Positions 20,694 through 27,105 of a DNA stretch of 52,097 nucleotides are shown piece after piece (position 1 is the first letter of the stretch; the number at the start of each line of letters is the position of its first letter). The notes beneath the pieces were generated by a model, which made no database searches, had not been told where the DNA came from, and saw nothing but the letters and a program-made list of their open reading frames with translations. This DNA comes from Akkermansiaceae bacterium (GTDB taxonomy: Bacteria; Verrucomicrobiota; Verrucomicrobiia; Verrucomicrobiales; Akkermansiaceae). The translations under genes were made by a program, and so were the position numbers. The stretch covers positions 1 to 52,097 of the forward strand of contig JAQWZU010000135.1 of NCBI GenBank assembly GCA_029253285.1, written 5' to 3'.

Positions 20694-20775
20694 CAGGCGA
20701 GCGTAGGAGGAGGCTGGACGAGATCAAGGATCTTTCTGGAAGTCCGGGACCTGAGTTGCGTATAGTTATTTCAAC

Positions 20776-21798
20776 ATGAAACGTCTCTCTCTCGTTATTC
20801 CGCTTCTTCTGGCTTTGGTCTGTCCTTTCTTTCTTTCAGCCAAGAAGGAAGATCCAAAGAAAATCGTCTTTATCGCGGGAAGTCGTAGTCACGCTTCGGG
20901 CGAGCACGAATTCCGGGCCGGCTGCATGTTGCTGGCGAAAGCGCTCAATGAGCAGAGTGGCTTGAATGTCGAAGCCGTCGTGGTAGGCAAGGGTTGGAAG
21001 AAAGACAAATCAGTTCTCGATGATGCCGATGCCATCGTGATTTTCGCGGATGGAACCAGTGGGATTGCTGGTGAGTGGGAATACCTCGATGGATTGGCCA
21101 AGAAGGGCGTGGGGTTTACCTTCATGCACTATGCGGTTCATCCGAGTGCCGAGGATGGCAAAAAGTATTACCAGCCGTGGATCGGCGGAGCGATGGAGTC
21201 AGGTTGGTCGGTCAATCCTCATTGGGTGGCTGACATGAAGGTAATGCAAGGTCACGAGATTTCCAACGGAGTGCCGAATGTCGTGACTTGCCTAGATGAG
21301 TTCTATTACAACATGCGATTCGTGGATGATCGTAAGAGTGTGCACAACTTGGTGACTGCCACGCCAACTCGTGATAACATGGCCCGTTACATCAACCTGT
21401 GGAATCAACATGGCGTCGATGGATTGAATAAGGAGCAGACGCTCATGTGGGGCTACGAGCGCCCTGATGGTAAAGGTCGTGGCGTTGGATTTACCGGTGG
21501 TCACTATCACCACGGTTGGGCCCTCGATGGCTATCGGACGGTAGTGCTGAATGCCATTGCCTGGACTGCGGGGATTAAGGTGCCTGAAAGCGGTGTGAAA
21601 TCAAAGTCACTGACGGAAGACGATCTCAATGCGAATTTGGATGACTACGGAAAGAAGCAAAAACGTCTGAAGCTCCCGAATGTGGAGGATTGGAAAAAAA
21701 TGCCGCCGGCCAAGGTGAATGAAGGACGCGAAGCAGGATTCAAGAACGAAGCCGAGCCAAAGAAAAAAGCTTCGACGTCAGGCTCAAAAAAAAAGTAG
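20776..21798 (+). CDS. ThuA domain protein, ends at a frameshift-prone site
   Basis: A 340-residue protein with a signal peptide (MKRLSLVIPLLLALVCPFFLSA) and a ThuA domain, a glutamine-amidotransferase-like (class I) fold linked to carbohydrate use in this phylum. Landmarks are FIAGSRSHASGEHEF, ADAIVIFADGTSG, GFTFMHYAVHPS and GFTGGHYHHGW near the end of the domain. The C-terminus is a low-complexity Lys/Ser tail (EPKKKASTSGSKKK) that stops within a run of nine A. The -1 reading frame from that point continues without a stop into the PVC cytochrome at 21846-24836. The intact product may therefore be a ThuA-NPCBM-cytochrome fusion of about 1350 residues, with this 340-residue form made when no shift occurs. 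Confidence 0.9.
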   Translation: MKRLSLVIPLLLALVCPFFLSAKKEDPKKIVFIAGSRSHASGEHEFRAGCMLLAKALNEQSGLNVEAVVVGKGWKKDKSVLDDADAIVIFADGTSGIAGEWEYLDGLAKKGVGFTFMHYAVHPSAEDGKKYYQPWIGGAMESGWSVNPHWVADMKVMQGHEISNGVPNVVTCLDEFYYNMRFVDDRKSVHNLVTATPTRDNMARYINLWNQHGVDGLNKEQTLMWGYERPDGKGRGVGFTGGHYHHGWALDGYRTVVLNAIAWTAGIKVPESGVKSKSLTEDDLNANLDDYGKKQKRLKLPNVEDWKKMPPAKVNEGREAGFKNEAEPKKKASTSGSKKK

Positions 21799-21838
21799 AG
21801 GGTGAATGGATTTACCAAAGTCCGCTGATAAAAAGCGG
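21786..21838 (+). other. candidate -1 frameshift site joining ThuA to the PVC cytochrome
   Basis: The run A9-G (21786-21795) is read in the ThuA frame as AAA AAA AAG followed at once by TAG (21796-21798). It thus contains the heptamer A_AAA_AAG (21789-21795), the same slippery sequence used by E. coli dnaX. In the -1 frame translation passes straight into GTA GAG GGT and the region before the NPCBM domain; that frame is open from 21723 to 24836. A small hairpin (CCGCT at 21822-21826 pairing with AGCGG at 21834-21838) lies 26 bases further on, more distant than usual. An indel or sequencing error in the A run would look the same. Confidence 0.55.
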
Positions 21839-21845
21839 CGGGAAG

Positions 21846-24836
21846 GTGAAGTTGGCGGAGATCGATCTTCCGCTTAGAAAACGGGATCTCTATTTGGCAG
21901 TATCTGGTGAGGGAGATATTAGTCACGACTGGGCGGACTGGTTGGAGCCAAAGATTACCTTGAAGGATGGAAAGCTTGTCGATCTCACTGGAATCAAATG
22001 GGAGTCGGCAACCACCGGGCACGCAAGGGTTCAGATCGGAAAGAACTGTGAAGGAAAGCCGCTGATTGTAGGGGGCAAGGTTTATCAAAAGGGGGTCGGA
22101 GTGCATGCCCAGTCAATGATTCACTATCGACTACCGGAAGGGGCGAAGAGGTTTCAAGCCAAGGTGGCCTTGGATGACGGGGGAGCGATCAGGGATAGCG
22201 GGAGGACGCCGGCCTCGGTGCGATTTTTCGTGTTTGATAAAAAGCCTGCCAAGATTCCCGAGGGACAGGCCGAAGCCTTCGACCCCGATTCGCTTGAGGC
22301 GGAGAAAGTTCCCGTCACTGCGTTTGAGGTGCCGGATGATTTGGAGGTGACCGTCTGGGCGACCAGCCCACTGCTCTACAACCCCACCAATATGGATACG
22401 GATGCCGCGGGGCGGATTTGGGTGGCGGAAGGAGTGAACTATCGTCGGCATCAAAAGCGTCGGCCCGAGGGAGATCGCATTGTTGTCCTCCAAGACACCA
22501 ATGGCGATGGAAAGGCGGATAGCTCGCATACCTTTGTGCAGGATCCCGAGTTGGTTGCTCCGCTTGGCGTGAGTGTGCTCGATAATCAAATCGTAGTGGC
22601 CCAGCCGCCTCATCTAATCGTCTACACCGACGTTGATCGGAATCTCCGGTTCGACCCGAAGATTGATAAGCGGGAGAATCTTCTCTCGGGTTTCAATGGC
22701 AAGAATCACGATCATAGTCTCCATGCCGTGGTGGCCGGGTCGGATGGGAAGTGGTATTTCAATCAGGGAAACTGCGGGGCGATGTTTACCTCGAAAGACG
22801 GCAAGACCTTCAGGGTTGGCGGCCCGTATCGAGGCGGTGGGGGAGAGTGGTTCGTCGATAACATCAAATTCGGCGGCGAGAAAAGTGATGACGGTCATGT
22901 CTGGGTCGGCGGCTTTGCTGGCAAGATGGATCCTGATGGGAGGAACGTGCAGATCATCGGGCATGGCTTTCGGAACAGCTACGAACACACCGTGACTTCG
23001 ATGGGCGATGTCTTTCAGAATGACAACGACGATCCGCCGGCTTGTCGAACCACATGGTTGATGGAGGGTGGATTCCTGGGCTTCTTTTCGCCCGATGGAA
23101 AGCGAACCTGGCAGGCTGATCGCCGACCGGGGCAATCAGTTCCGCGCGCGCATTGGCGTCAGGATGATCCGGGGACACTTCCGCCGGGAGATGTTTATGG
23201 TGGTGGATCACCGACTGGCATTTGCTACTACGAACACGGAGCCTTACCGAAGAAGTACGAAGGTCTGCTCTTGAGTTGCGAGGCGGCGAAGCGGGTGGTT
23301 TATGGATATCACCCGAAGCCCGAAGGCGCGAACTTCAAGCTGGAACGATTTGATTTCTTCAAGAGTAAGACCGGGAATATGTTCCGCCCCTCTGATGTCA
23401 TGGTTGGAGCCGATGGTGCGATTTATGTTGCGGATTGGTATGATCCAGGAGTCGGTGGCCACGCGGACCGGGATGGAAGTTGCAGTGGAACGATTTATCG
23501 AATCGCACCAAAAGGATTTAAGGCGAAGCTTTCGCAAGCAGGGCAATCGAATCCCATCACAGCGGCGATCAAGATGCTGAAGAGTCCGGCGATCAATGTG
23601 CGCTATGCGGGATTCGAAATACTCCGCGAGGCCGGCCCCAAGGTCTTGCCTGCCCTCATGGAGGTGATGAGAGATTCGAACAAGTATATTCGGGCTCGCG
23701 CGATTCACTTGCTGCCATACATGGGGCAAGAGGGAAGGATGGTGCTGAATGGCTTGCTCGGGCATAAGTCCGCAGGAATGCGCCTGATGGCGATGCGTTC
23801 TTTGCGTGCCGCTGGCGAAGATCCCTTGAGGCTCGCAAGAGTTCTGGTAGTTGATGCGAGTCCTCAAGTGCGCCGGGAGGTTGCGGTCGCTCTGCGAGAT
23901 GTTGATCCACAGGCGAAGATCCCTTTGGCTGTGGAATTGCTTCACCGCTACGACGGAGATCGAACCTATCTTGAAGCCTGCGGCTTTGCTGCGGAAGGAG
24001 TTGAGGAAAAAGTTTGGAATGGATTGCGTCTGGTTAAGAAGGGAGCCGGTGCTTTGGATTGGACTCCGGACCTGGCGAGGATCGCCTGGCGACTCAAGAT
24101 TCCGTCTTTGATTCCTGCTCTTCAAGAACGCGCGGCAAGTTCGACTCTCTCTGATGCAGAGCGCTTGTTTGCGGTTGATTCATTGGCCTTCATTGATGAC
24201 CCCAAGTCGGTGCCCGCGATGGTGTCGCTTGCCAAAGTTCCCGGCCCGGTGGGAGTGTCGGCTTCACAGTGGTTGATTCATCTTTCCAATACCCGGTGGT
24301 CTCAGTTCGGAGTGAAGGATGTCCTTAAGAAGGAAGGTATCTACGATCCTGGCAAGGTGGAGATTGTTTCGGTGCGTGTTCCCAGGCCTGCGAAATCTTC
24401 GCTTCCTCCGCTAAAGGACCTGATGAAGTTGAAGGGCAATATTGCCCGGGGGAAGACGACCGCAGCGCGTTGTATCATGTGTCACCAGATCGAAGGACAG
24501 GGCGTGAACTTTGGTCCTGATCTGAAGGGGTGGATTGAGCGGCAGGGCAAAGAGATGTTTTTGCGTTCCGTGGTCAATCCGTCCGAGCAGATTGCGCAGG
24601 GCTATACTGGCTCGTCGGTCAAGTTGAAGGAGGGTGGCGAAGTTCAAGGCTTGGTCTTGAGTAAGTCGAATCCGGTCATCGTGCAGTCCCAGGGTGGGCT
24701 GGTGCAGATGATTCCTGCCGACAAGGTTGAGAAAGTGAGCAACATGAAACATTCGCTGATGCTTTCGGCCGATCAATTGGGACTGAGCGCCCGTGATTTG
24801 GCTGACCTGACCTCGTATCTTGAAACCTTGAAGTGA
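21846..24836 (+). CDS. PVC-type haem-binding CxxCH protein with NPCBM domain and HEAT repeats
   Basis: A 996-residue protein if begun at GTG 21846. Domains in order are an NPCBM-like carbohydrate-binding module (about 45-130: IKWESATTG, GVGVHAQSMIHYRLP), a large PVC membrane-bound-dehydrogenase-like beta-propeller (about 140-560: VWATSPLLYNPTNMDTD, ADGAIYVADWYDPGVGGH), HEAT-like repeats (about 575-800) and a c-type cytochrome domain with C876-I-M-C879-H880. Cytochrome c must be exported for haem attachment, yet this start gives no signal peptide, and the NPCBM-leading strands (WIYQSPLIK) lie before it. The frame is open from 21723 but has no ATG, GTG or TTG there. I infer that it is expressed by fusion to ThuA or is broken by an indel. 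The role is probably periplasmic sugar oxidation or electron transfer. Confidence 0.82.
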   Translation: MKLAEIDLPLRKRDLYLAVSGEGDISHDWADWLEPKITLKDGKLVDLTGIKWESATTGHARVQIGKNCEGKPLIVGGKVYQKGVGVHAQSMIHYRLPEGAKRFQAKVALDDGGAIRDSGRTPASVRFFVFDKKPAKIPEGQAEAFDPDSLEAEKVPVTAFEVPDDLEVTVWATSPLLYNPTNMDTDAAGRIWVAEGVNYRRHQKRRPEGDRIVVLQDTNGDGKADSSHTFVQDPELVAPLGVSVLDNQIVVAQPPHLIVYTDVDRNLRFDPKIDKRENLLSGFNGKNHDHSLHAVVAGSDGKWYFNQGNCGAMFTSKDGKTFRVGGPYRGGGGEWFVDNIKFGGEKSDDGHVWVGGFAGKMDPDGRNVQIIGHGFRNSYEHTVTSMGDVFQNDNDDPPACRTTWLMEGGFLGFFSPDGKRTWQADRRPGQSVPRAHWRQDDPGTLPPGDVYGGGSPTGICYYEHGALPKKYEGLLLSCEAAKRVVYGYHPKPEGANFKLERFDFFKSKTGNMFRPSDVMVGADGAIYVADWYDPGVGGHADRDGSCSGTIYRIAPKGFKAKLSQAGQSNPITAAIKMLKSPAINVRYAGFEILREAGPKVLPALMEVMRDSNKYIRARAIHLLPYMGQEGRMVLNGLLGHKSAGMRLMAMRSLRAAGEDPLRLARVLVVDASPQVRREVAVALRDVDPQAKIPLAVELLHRYDGDRTYLEACGFAAEGVEEKVWNGLRLVKKGAGALDWTPDLARIAWRLKIPSLIPALQERAASSTLSDAERLFAVDSLAFIDDPKSVPAMVSLAKVPGPVGVSASQWLIHLSNTRWSQFGVKDVLKKEGIYDPGKVEIVSVRVPRPAKSSLPPLKDLMKLKGNIARGKTTAARCIMCHQIEGQGVNFGPDLKGWIERQGKEMFLRSVVNPSEQIAQGYTGSSVKLKEGGEVQGLVLSKSNPVIVQSQGGLVQMIPADKVEKVSNMKHSLMLSADQLGLSARDLADLTSYLETLK

Positions 24837-24870
24837 TCTTGTTTTGACGAATGGGGAGCGGCGGGTTTGT

Positions 24871-27105
24871 ATGACTCCTATGGTTCGTTTGATATTAGTG
24901 GGGCTGTTGCTCCCTGGTCCGCTATGGGCGCAAGGTCTCCCCGCGCTTCCCGATGGCAAGGCTCCGAATGATTCGCGCTTAAAGCCGCCGGTCACGCTGC
25001 ATGATTACCATCCTTTTCGTCCGGTTACTTCCAAAGAAGAGTGGCCCGAGCGTCAGGAGGAAATCGTGCGTCGGATTGCGGTAAGTTGTGGCTTGTGGCC
25101 ACAGCCGACCAAGACGCCGCTCAATGCCGTCATTCACAAAAAGATTGATCAAGGAGACTATACTGTTGAAGCAGTGTTATTTGAATCGATGCCGGGTCAT
25201 TATGTGACAGGGAGTTTGTATCGTCCCGCCGGTGAGTCCCTGAAGATCGGGGTGAAGAATGGCAATCGTCCGGGCGTGCTTTGTGCACACGGGCACTGGC
25301 ATGACGCCCGCTACGCGCACAAATCCGATGACCATGCGAAGCGAGAGATCGCGATTGGAGCCGAGCGATTTTTGAATGGCGGGAAATCGGTGCATCAGGC
25401 GCGCTGTGTGCAGTTGGCGAGGATGGGGTGTGTTGTTTTCTTTTACGACATGCTTGGCAATGCCGACTCGATGCAGTTTCCCGATCACCGCCGTGGGCCT
25501 CGTCCCGAAACCAATGGCGAGAAGATGGGCGAGTGGGGCTTTGTCTCAAAAAATGCCTCGGCGCGATTGCAGACGAACTTTGGATTGCAGACCTGGAACA
25601 GCATACGCTCACTGGATTTTATTTTGAGTCTCGATGGCGTTGATACAAATCGCATTCTCGTGACCGGTGCGAGTGGTGGAGCCACGCAGACAATGATGGT
25701 AAGCGCCTTGGACGAGCGAGTGACGGCGTCCTTTCCTTGCGTCATGGTTTCGACCGCGATGCAAGGCGGTTGCACTTGTGAGAACGGGCACTACTTGCGA
25801 ATAGGGCAGGGGAATATTGATATCGCGGCGGCGGTTGCTCCCCGTCCCTTGGGATTAACGGCCGCTGACGACTGGACGATTGAGTTGAAAGAAAAGGGGC
25901 ACCCGGATTTGGACAAACTCTACCAGATGATCGGAGCGAAGGGAAAATACGAGGCGCATTTCGATATTCATTTCAAGCACAACTACAATCACGTCTCGCG
26001 GACGCATCTCTACCAGTTCGTGAACCGGCACTTTGGCCTGGGATTAAAATCGCCGGTTCTGGAGAGTGATTTCAATTTATTGGGAAAGAAGGAGCTTTCG
26101 GTTTTCAACGACAAGCATCCAGCTCCATCGGGTGATCAGACGGGTATGTCTCATGAGAAGGCCTTGAACCGCTGGTGGGCCGAGGATTCGGATAAGCAGA
26201 TCAACGCTTTGTTAAATCCCAAAACGGAAGAGGAGTTTGCTAAGACCAAGGATGTGATCGGAGGAGCGCTCGATGTCATGATTGGACGAAAACTTCCGGC
26301 GAAAGGAGAGGCGAACTATGAATTGGTCAGCAAAGAGGCTCGTGATGGTTTTATGGAACTCTGCGGGCTTGTTCAAAACACAAAGCATGGCGAAGAAATC
26401 CCCGCATCGTTTTTGTATCCACTCGGGAATTGGCAAGGGCACGTTGTTATCTGGTTATCGCCGGATGGAAAGAGCGGGATTTTCAAAAAGGGAGCAGAGC
26501 CGAAAGACGATGTGCGTAAACTTCTCGAAAGTGGAATCGCCGTAATGGGTTTGGATCTGTATGGCCAGGGCGACTTCTTGAATGCGGAGAGTTTGGCCAA
26601 ATCCAAGGGAGCCAATCCCGGACTAATCTATTCAAAAAATCAGAATGCAAAGTTGCCCGCCAATAGCTGGCAACGATCTCCGGTTTACTACTATGGCTAC
26701 AACCACAGCACCTTTGCTCGTCGCGTTCATGATGTGCTGACTGCGGTGGCATTTGCGCAGCATAGCGAAAACTATGACGTAAAAAAAATCTCTTTGGTCG
26801 CTCCGAAGGGTGCCGGGCATTGGGCGGCGGCTGCTCGGGCCGTGGTCGGAGGAGAGGTGATTCAAAAAGCGTGGATCGATACGAGTGGGTTTAGTTTCGC
26901 CAATCTGAAAAACCACTGGGACGCCAACTTCCTTCCAGGCGCGGTAAAGTATGGTGATATCGCCGGTCTTCTCACCCTGAATGCGCCCTTCGACACTGCC
27001 TTGCTCGATACAGAGATACTGAGCGAATCGCTAAAGAAATTAGCAGCTAAAACCGGAGGTAAGGTTTCCCCAAGGAAAGACCTCGTGGCCTATTTCTTGA
27101 AGTGA
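24871..27105 (+). CDS. exported acetylxylan-esterase-like alpha/beta hydrolase
   Basis: A protein of about 744 residues with a signal peptide (MVRLILVGLLLPGPLWA after MTP). The first half is an alpha/beta hydrolase of the acetyl xylan esterase type: GVLCAHGHWHD (oxyanion region), YDMLGNADSMQF, nucleophile S268 in GASGGATQ, and a His in FKHNYNHVSRTH. The second half (about residue 420 onward) is a further alpha/beta-like domain of unclear activity (VIWLSPDGKSG, GLDLYGQGDF, APKGAGHW). It probably removes acetyl or other esters from polysaccharides in the periplasm. The start at 24871 is preferred over TTG 24844 because it opens the signal peptide. It follows the PVC cytochrome by 34 bp on the same strand. 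Its last 16 bp overlap the convergent esterase gene. Confidence 0.82.
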   Translation: MTPMVRLILVGLLLPGPLWAQGLPALPDGKAPNDSRLKPPVTLHDYHPFRPVTSKEEWPERQEEIVRRIAVSCGLWPQPTKTPLNAVIHKKIDQGDYTVEAVLFESMPGHYVTGSLYRPAGESLKIGVKNGNRPGVLCAHGHWHDARYAHKSDDHAKREIAIGAERFLNGGKSVHQARCVQLARMGCVVFFYDMLGNADSMQFPDHRRGPRPETNGEKMGEWGFVSKNASARLQTNFGLQTWNSIRSLDFILSLDGVDTNRILVTGASGGATQTMMVSALDERVTASFPCVMVSTAMQGGCTCENGHYLRIGQGNIDIAAAVAPRPLGLTAADDWTIELKEKGHPDLDKLYQMIGAKGKYEAHFDIHFKHNYNHVSRTHLYQFVNRHFGLGLKSPVLESDFNLLGKKELSVFNDKHPAPSGDQTGMSHEKALNRWWAEDSDKQINALLNPKTEEEFAKTKDVIGGALDVMIGRKLPAKGEANYELVSKEARDGFMELCGLVQNTKHGEEIPASFLYPLGNWQGHVVIWLSPDGKSGIFKKGAEPKDDVRKLLESGIAVMGLDLYGQGDFLNAESLAKSKGANPGLIYSKNQNAKLPANSWQRSPVYYYGYNHSTFARRVHDVLTAVAFAQHSENYDVKKISLVAPKGAGHWAAAARAVVGGEVIQKAWIDTSGFSFANLKNHWDANFLPGAVKYGDIAGLLTLNAPFDTALLDTEILSESLKKLAAKTGGKVSPRKDLVAYFLK

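Follow-up and report, generated by a model that had tools for sequence, protein, structure and literature searches.

Runs of nine adenines (A9) at the junction of two open reading frames (ORFs) are known in bacteria as sites of RNA-polymerase slippage, as in T. thermophilus dnaX, insertion sequence (IS) elements, S. aureus mapW and the so-called 'pseudo pseudogenes' (PMC1088944; the literature cited throughout is drawn on in excerpt). In these genes the downstream ORF lies in the frame of one added A, the organisation is kept in several non-identical homologues, and one-frame homologues occur elsewhere; in the case of T. thermophilus dnaX, about half of the product is short, and A/T runs are selected against from length nine in a large share of bacterial genomes (PMC1088944). 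In E. coli, insertions in transcripts climb exponentially with run length up to the longest run present, 9 nt (PMC5574713). Here we describe such a junction in the window, i.e., the whole 52,097-nt stretch of contig JAQWZU010000135.1 from a marine Akkermansiaceae bacterium, where the ORF of a ThuA-domain protein ends in an A9 run and a long -1 frame encoding a PVC-type cytochrome continues past it. That this was one ancestral gene rather than two is well supported, and on balance we favor the reading that an ancestrally fused gene was broken once at A9 and is probably still expressed, through slippage, as ThuA alone plus a 1353-residue fusion.

The junction resembles the described A9 slippage genes. 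The ThuA ORF (20776-21798, forward strand like all features below; 340 aa; Pfam PF06283, E 1.3e-12) ends TCA AAA AAA AAG TAG, as the first-pass annotation of this DNA had it; nine A's (21786-21794) end the upstream ORF, and a slip would lead to a longer product. Within the junction as a whole, GGC TCA AAA AAA AAG TAG, the heptamer A_AAA_AAG occupies 21789-21795 in the ThuA frame and is abutted by the TAG stop of ThuA (21796-21798). The open stretch of the -1 frame reaches from 21723 to a stop at 24834-24836, again as first described, and its continuation past the run, which begins GTA GAG GGT, comprises 1013 codons (21795-24836). The unshifted frame meets the TAG immediately, and the third frame meets a TGA at the fourth codon past the run. 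It had been proposed that reads with 8 or 10 A's would indicate an ordinary fused gene or an artefact; this is right for 10 A's (or 7), which give a single frame, but the A8 version, TCA AAA AAA AGT AGA GGG TGA, runs into stops and has no single frame. This kind of event is already known, and a 2005 survey of 108 bacterial genomes lists seven cases that combine a conserved ORF organisation with a conserved 9A; six of the seven are from insertion sequences (PMC1088944). What would be new is its occurrence in a non-mobile metabolic gene, where, unlike in those cases, slippage would join an exported enzyme of 340 aa to a module of 1013 aa.

The downstream frame belongs to a described family, the PVC-type heme-binding CxxCH proteins (TIGR02604 plus TIGR02603), with which it shares the order propeller, HEAT repeats, cytochrome c. 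Both profiles score above their cut-offs and place the frame in this family: the propeller (TIGR02604/DUF7133, 22338-23516, with a PQQ/GSDH-like fold in an AlphaFold model) reaches 457.2 bits in NCBIfam (cut-off 122.2), and the cytochrome c domain (TIGR02603, 24435-24827, with its CxxCH at 24471-24485) reaches 128.5 bits (cut-off 68.15). HEAT repeats lie between them (23562-23717, Pfam PF13646, HEAT_2; the helical repeat region is longer in the model), and an NPCBM domain precedes them (21984-22235, Pfam PF08305, E 4.1e-22), so that Pfam reports DUF7133, NPCBM, HEAT_2 and Cytochrom_C for the second ORF. Planctomycete-type cytochrome c genes have been described with NPCBM as one of their modules (PMC5615132, in the part available). 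Unlike other members of the family, however, the protein here has an N-terminal ThuA joined across a frame break. A search of the literature on ThuA-cytochrome fusions and on slippage in Verrucomicrobia, by title and abstract opening and with few subscription journals covered, retrieved nothing describing the fusion or the break. The ThuA ORF matched no NCBIfam profile and, in a sequence search, no solved structure at E 0.01; parts of the second half matched a diheme cytochrome and artificial helical-repeat proteins, along with a match in the NPCBM region.

The sequence GGCTC-A9-GTAGAGGGTGA at the junction is common to three species-level genomes, i.e., the window's own (G000), P03SWT0bin.3 (G002) and TMED86 (G017), the last with one synonymous base difference within the part that follows the run. 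A shorter junction pattern, searched for in all 27 genomes of the genus, was found in four, the fourth being G005; the clade is represented by one genome per species. The run is nine long in G002 and G017 as in the window, and eight long in G005, where about 2.7 kb of the downstream part is gone and the remainder is out of frame and disrupted; relaxation of constraint after a break, as expected of a pseudogene, is clear there. From A8 neither one added A nor a -1 slip of the ribosome leads into the frame; one lost A would. A conserved A_AAA_AAG had been suggested as something to look for in relatives: the heptamer is identical in G002 and G017, but as part of an A9 run it is not conserved outside these three. 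Two further candidates were set aside, namely a second AAAAAAAGTAGAGG site in the window's genome (contig C101), which has A7 and lies at the start of an unrelated gene, and eight matches to a degenerate junction pattern in viral contigs, which we took as chance.

On its own, the downstream frame lacks both a conserved start near its beginning and an export signal. The earlier observation that the -1 frame holds no ATG, GTG or TTG before 21846 stands for the window; ORF calling from the GTG there (21846-21848) yields a downstream product of 996 aa. In G017 this codon reads GTA, with a TTG and a GTG particular to that genome 6 and 9 bases further on, and no ATG, GTG or TTG is common to the three genomes before a TTG at 21894. 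A start further upstream in the -1 frame was also rejected: a TAA in that frame upstream of the run excludes such entry in G002, and the window has no canonical start there. The 17 codons between the run and the GTG vary at three sites among the three genomes, all of them synonymous in the -1 frame.

As for export, the ThuA ORF opens with a signal-peptide-like N-terminus read off the translation, MKRLSLVIPLLLALVCPFFLSA (20776-20841), and the fused relatives L011 and L057 have a nearly identical N-terminal peptide (signal scores 2.74 and 3.35). No signal-like stretch follows any -1-frame start within 50 codons past the run in the window, G002 or G017 (best score 0.75), on a simple hydrophobicity score for which fused loci supply more candidate starts than short frames do. 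This is in line with the claim that ThuA has a signal peptide and the downstream product has none. A score of at least 2.0 was reached in 38 of the 49 loci examined. The 11 below it are the three A9 genomes, the contig-cut L071, L146 and L153, four loci scoring 1.88-1.95 with a visible signal peptide in each (L016, L018, L020 and L023), and L014, in which no signal-like stretch was found by this score. A c-type cytochrome that is not exported is not expected to receive haem, and the downstream frame would have the export signal of a PVC-type protein only if joined to ThuA.

The shifted frame has evolved nearly as an intact gene would. Counted from the codon after the run, the window and G002 differ by 199 substitutions with 53 amino-acid changes, the window and G017 by 120 with 33, and G002 and G017 by 154 with 35, and none of these substitutions creates a stop. 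Random placement (2000 runs; the three pairs share sequences) would, in the same order, be expected to give 6.4, 3.8 and 4.1 stops and 131, 80 and 102 changes, and zero stops arose in 0.35%, 2.4% and 1.75% of the runs. The ratio of nonsynonymous to synonymous rates (dN/dS) of the shifted frame by NG86 is 0.115, 0.111 and 0.087 for the three pairs, as against 0.078-0.095 for four intact PVC pairs with dS of 0.15-0.24 (L012/L141, L012/L143, L141/L143 and L016/L018, the first three sharing sequences), 0.052-0.234 for all intact PVC pairs given, and 0.037-0.058 for ThuA of the A9 clade. By YN00 the shifted frame gives 0.112-0.143, versus 0.074-0.127 for the same four intact pairs. These substitution patterns show a clear constraint on the shifted frame, relaxed slightly at most.

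That relatives might carry ThuA fused in one frame had been raised beforehand, and such fusions were found at 18 distinct loci outside the clade. The sampling took in 38 genomes of the same order, 260 of the family and 27 of the genus. The 54 locus entries compared comprise 19 (18 distinct) in-frame ThuA fusions, 20 without a ThuA match alongside, 9 (8 distinct) with separate neighboring genes and 6 (4 distinct) from the A9/A8 clade; of 80 named loci, only 7 with a ThuA match were taken in, 17 loci (L038-L054) and the paralogues of the window's genome (L002-L008) were left out, and a neighboring ThuA is visible only within flanks of about 1.5 kb. No A run of nine occurs near the junction in any of the 18 distinct fused or 8 split loci. 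The longest there outside the clade is the A8 of L033, in the ThuA/NPCBM linker of an in-frame fusion and one base below slippery length, and the others are of seven or fewer. A fused orthologue in a Spartobacteria metagenome-assembled genome (L101) has a frame change of its own inside the second half, at about 7100, which is either an artefact or a second break.

The three shifted genes group together in a tree built from 48 PVC sequences, with the fused L011 as their sister (support 87); next to these come the fused L057 and the eight split genes, the latter as one group (support 100). Some long branches in this tree and in the ThuA tree are unreliable. Because L011 and L057, the nearest neighbors in the PVC tree, are in-frame fusions, we take the fused state to be ancestral in this clade; the likeliest course, as far as the trees tell, is a fused starting state followed by one break and, separately, one full split. 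This agrees with the first-pass annotation in that one gene rather than two is the most likely reading. Separate genes, the second with its own signal peptide, had been named as what would speak against it; they do occur, in all eight split loci with a signal-like N-terminus on the second gene, but as one derived clade next to a fused gene. Deeper in the PVC tree, fused and ThuA-less genes are mixed, and the fused label needs eight changes, which implies several gains or losses of the fusion. G005 is nested in the A9 group of the ThuA tree (96/86), and by parsimony A9 is therefore probably older than the split of the four genomes, with A8 and the deletion derived. Six of the seven split rows in that tree (L012, L140-L142, L144 and L145) have a more distant ThuA, perhaps through replacement. 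The ThuA of the split clade is mostly about 42-45% identical to the window's; L143 is cut at its ThuA, and L058 keeps an orthologous one. The window's genome has 62 stretches that match the PVC protein, several per gene, and its PVC proteins form a large paralogous family.

The other A9 runs of the same genome (4.31 Mb in 224 contigs) served as controls. Counting both strands there are 19 A9 runs, compared with 170 runs of exactly eight A's, and the 18 other than the junction are each exactly nine long. Eight of the 18 lie inside sense ORFs of at least 261 aa that read past the run (L154, L160, L165-L169 and L171), from which it follows that broken genes are not a general feature of A9 runs in this assembly. 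At the remaining ten (L155-L159, L161-L164 and L170) reading found no long sense gene across the run; the short frames beside them were read without homology comparison. On this reading of the 19 runs, at no A9 in the genome other than the junction does a long ORF stop at the run while its homology carries on in a different frame. L170 comes closest: a sense ORF of 318 aa stops there some 10 bases short of the run, and the overlapping frame that follows encodes a related protein, but past the run that protein has an ATG of its own and a hydrophobic leader. Tandem related genes lie beside the runs both of L166 (contig C140), where the run falls close to the end of the first gene, and of L170 (contig C222), where it comes just after the first gene; both look like ordinary duplications with their own starts.

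Recombination has to be considered when the agreement among the three genomes is read. Most 250-base steps differ by 4-8% between the window and G002, but ThuA (20750-21750) differs by 14-18%, with an NG86 dS of about 1.1 versus 0.23 downstream, while the ThuA region is only 3-8% diverged from G017 and G005. The diverged tract of G002 ends about at the junction, pointing to probable recombination in ThuA with one end near it; the agreement of the window and G002 in A9 is therefore weaker evidence than it appears. The constraint on the reading frame is independent of that agreement. Further downstream, divergence from G002 is 16% at 25500-26000 and 24-32% at 26000-26750, inside an AXE1-like gene (24844-27105), with steps further out at 4-10%; 25500-26750 is likely a recombined or replaced segment.

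The favored reading would then run as follows. The ancestral gene would have encoded an exported protein with a signal peptide, ThuA, NPCBM, a sugar-dehydrogenase-like propeller, HEAT repeats and cytochrome c, and in a small Roseibacillus-like clade a single length change would have left A9 at the ThuA/NPCBM linker and broken it. RNA polymerase may add one A (or drop two) at A9, which would give a single frame in the transcript, and/or ribosomes may slip by -1 on A_AAA_AAG. This would yield ThuA, about 340 residues long, alongside some share of the 1353-residue exported fusion, and only the fusion would take the cytochrome out of the cytoplasm. We infer that slippage occurs, and its level and the importance of both products are likewise inferred. 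We favor RNA-polymerase slippage, with ribosomal slippage as a possible addition. The locus shares with dnaX-type -1 shifting the heptamer, the stop right after it and a hairpin 5 nt downstream, and frameshift spacers of 5-9 nt are usual (PMC5009743, in the part available). The hairpin is a tentatively predicted 6-bp stem-loop, GGUGAA-UGGA-UUUACC (21801-21816; z -2.5 for a 50-nt segment), and fold prediction suggests a second at 21821-21842. In E. coli dnaX, by contrast, the shift leads to the shorter product, whereas here it would give the longer one. No Shine-Dalgarno-like stimulator was seen by eye 10-14 nt upstream of the heptamer, the only candidate being an AGG close to it, and a scan of 21650-22000 against Rfam found no frameshift element; a known RNA element at the junction was set aside, the single match lying far below the gathering score. 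Of the dnaX-type programmed shift first proposed, the in-frame heptamer holds, while a programmed or ribosomal origin, as opposed to RNA polymerase, is not established.

Several observations weigh against continued expression through slippage. The hairpin support is modest: the z values against shuffles range from -2.1 to -3.2, and in G017 another fold has the minimum energy. The dN/dS of the shifted frame is slightly above that of the four matched controls and about twice that of ThuA, and part of its low value could date from before the break, should the break be recent or have happened more than once. Transcripts of E. coli and Buchnera showed no transcription error restoring the frame of a frameshifted pseudogene (PMC5574713, in the part available). 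Three A9 sequences are few and may agree partly through recombination, the contig of G017 ends at codon 936 of the 1013, so that the frame is seen no further there, and, as G005 shows, loss of the downstream part can occur.

Decay and phase variation are the two serious rivals of the favored reading. The first would be a decay in progress, in which the A9 break recently inactivated the downstream part, ThuA alone is kept and G005, with its A8, its deletion of about 2.7 kb and its disrupted remainder, is the next step. The slightly raised dN/dS and the many relatives with a PVC gene lacking ThuA, or with two separate genes, would fit such a course; however, G005 sits inside the A9 clade of the ThuA tree and A9 predates the split of the four genomes by parsimony, and in the other three the frame has stayed free of stops and its dN/dS is low, so we regard decay as unlikely. 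Run lengths of 9, 9, 9 and 8 would also be produced by phase variation, in which replication slippage changes the run, cells with A10 (or A7) make the fusion, those with A9 or A8 do not, and the sampled genomes are all in the off state. Homopolymers are hypermutable, and a survey of prokaryotic frame transitions lists phase variation as a cause (PMC3711429, in the part available); yet none of the four genomes, one per species, is in the in-frame state, and none of the 19 runs of A9 or longer in the window's genome exceeds nine, which makes this explanation rather improbable.

Two independent genes, which the first-pass annotation ranked last, indeed make the weakest biological reading, with no shared start and no signal peptide. 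The second gene would be cytoplasmic and would start, by translational coupling, at GTG 21846, present in the window and G002, or at one of the near-cognate codons ATT, CTG and ATA that all three A9 genomes share nearer the run. The GTA of G017, for which an independent start at 21846 was thought unlikely, the lack of a shared canonical start before 21894, the purely synonymous variation of the 17 codons ahead of the GTG, the signal-like N-termini in all eight separate-gene relatives and the general expectation that an unexported c-type cytochrome gets no haem leave this reading very little room. Still harder to credit is a sequencing or assembly artefact hiding a true A10 and a single frame. 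Homopolymers are the usual site of such errors, but A9 is found in three genomes from different assemblies (two of them an MHASMcontig of TMED86 and a NODE contig of P03SWT0bin.3, a name we take to be SPAdes-style), and at eight other A9 runs the open frame is unbroken; with three assemblies in agreement, an error confined to a single genome was thought unlikely. An indel in the A run that split one gene had been offered earlier as the alternative to frameshifting; one gene, broken once, remains most likely, but as an isolated assembly indel it is improbable.

The function of the presumed fusion can be approached from the model of the 1013 residues past the run (built with 22 sequences; mean pLDDT 83, pTM 0.71), in which the predicted propeller best matches soluble PQQ glucose dehydrogenase and AA12 pyranose dehydrogenase, the best match being the former (5min, E 1.6e-10, TM-score 0.58 by target length). 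The neighboring genes include a GSDH-like gene and esterase-like genes. One may reasonably guess at an enzyme of the periplasm that oxidises sugars and hands the electrons on to the cytochrome it carries, while ThuA would act on that substrate or on the one that comes next. The verrucomicrobial TIGR02604-HEAT-cytochrome protein Lac161_ORF7, likened here by its propeller-HEAT-cytochrome architecture only, has a measured beta-galactosidase activity, and the available part of its description, in a difference from the present locus, names no ThuA or NPCBM (PMC5342196).

At this locus ORF calling alone misleads, yielding a lone ThuA and a cytochrome protein without an export signal. The fused, shifted, split and lost states found among close relatives would allow a test of whether slippage sustains broken genes in evolution. 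More tentatively, the locus might represent the mid-point of a gene fission, in which slippage kept the fusion alive and set the ratio of ThuA to ThuA-fusion, a sister lineage split fully with a new signal peptide, and one species lost A9 and then the second half. If that possibility were true, all stages of the process would be visible within one bacterial family.

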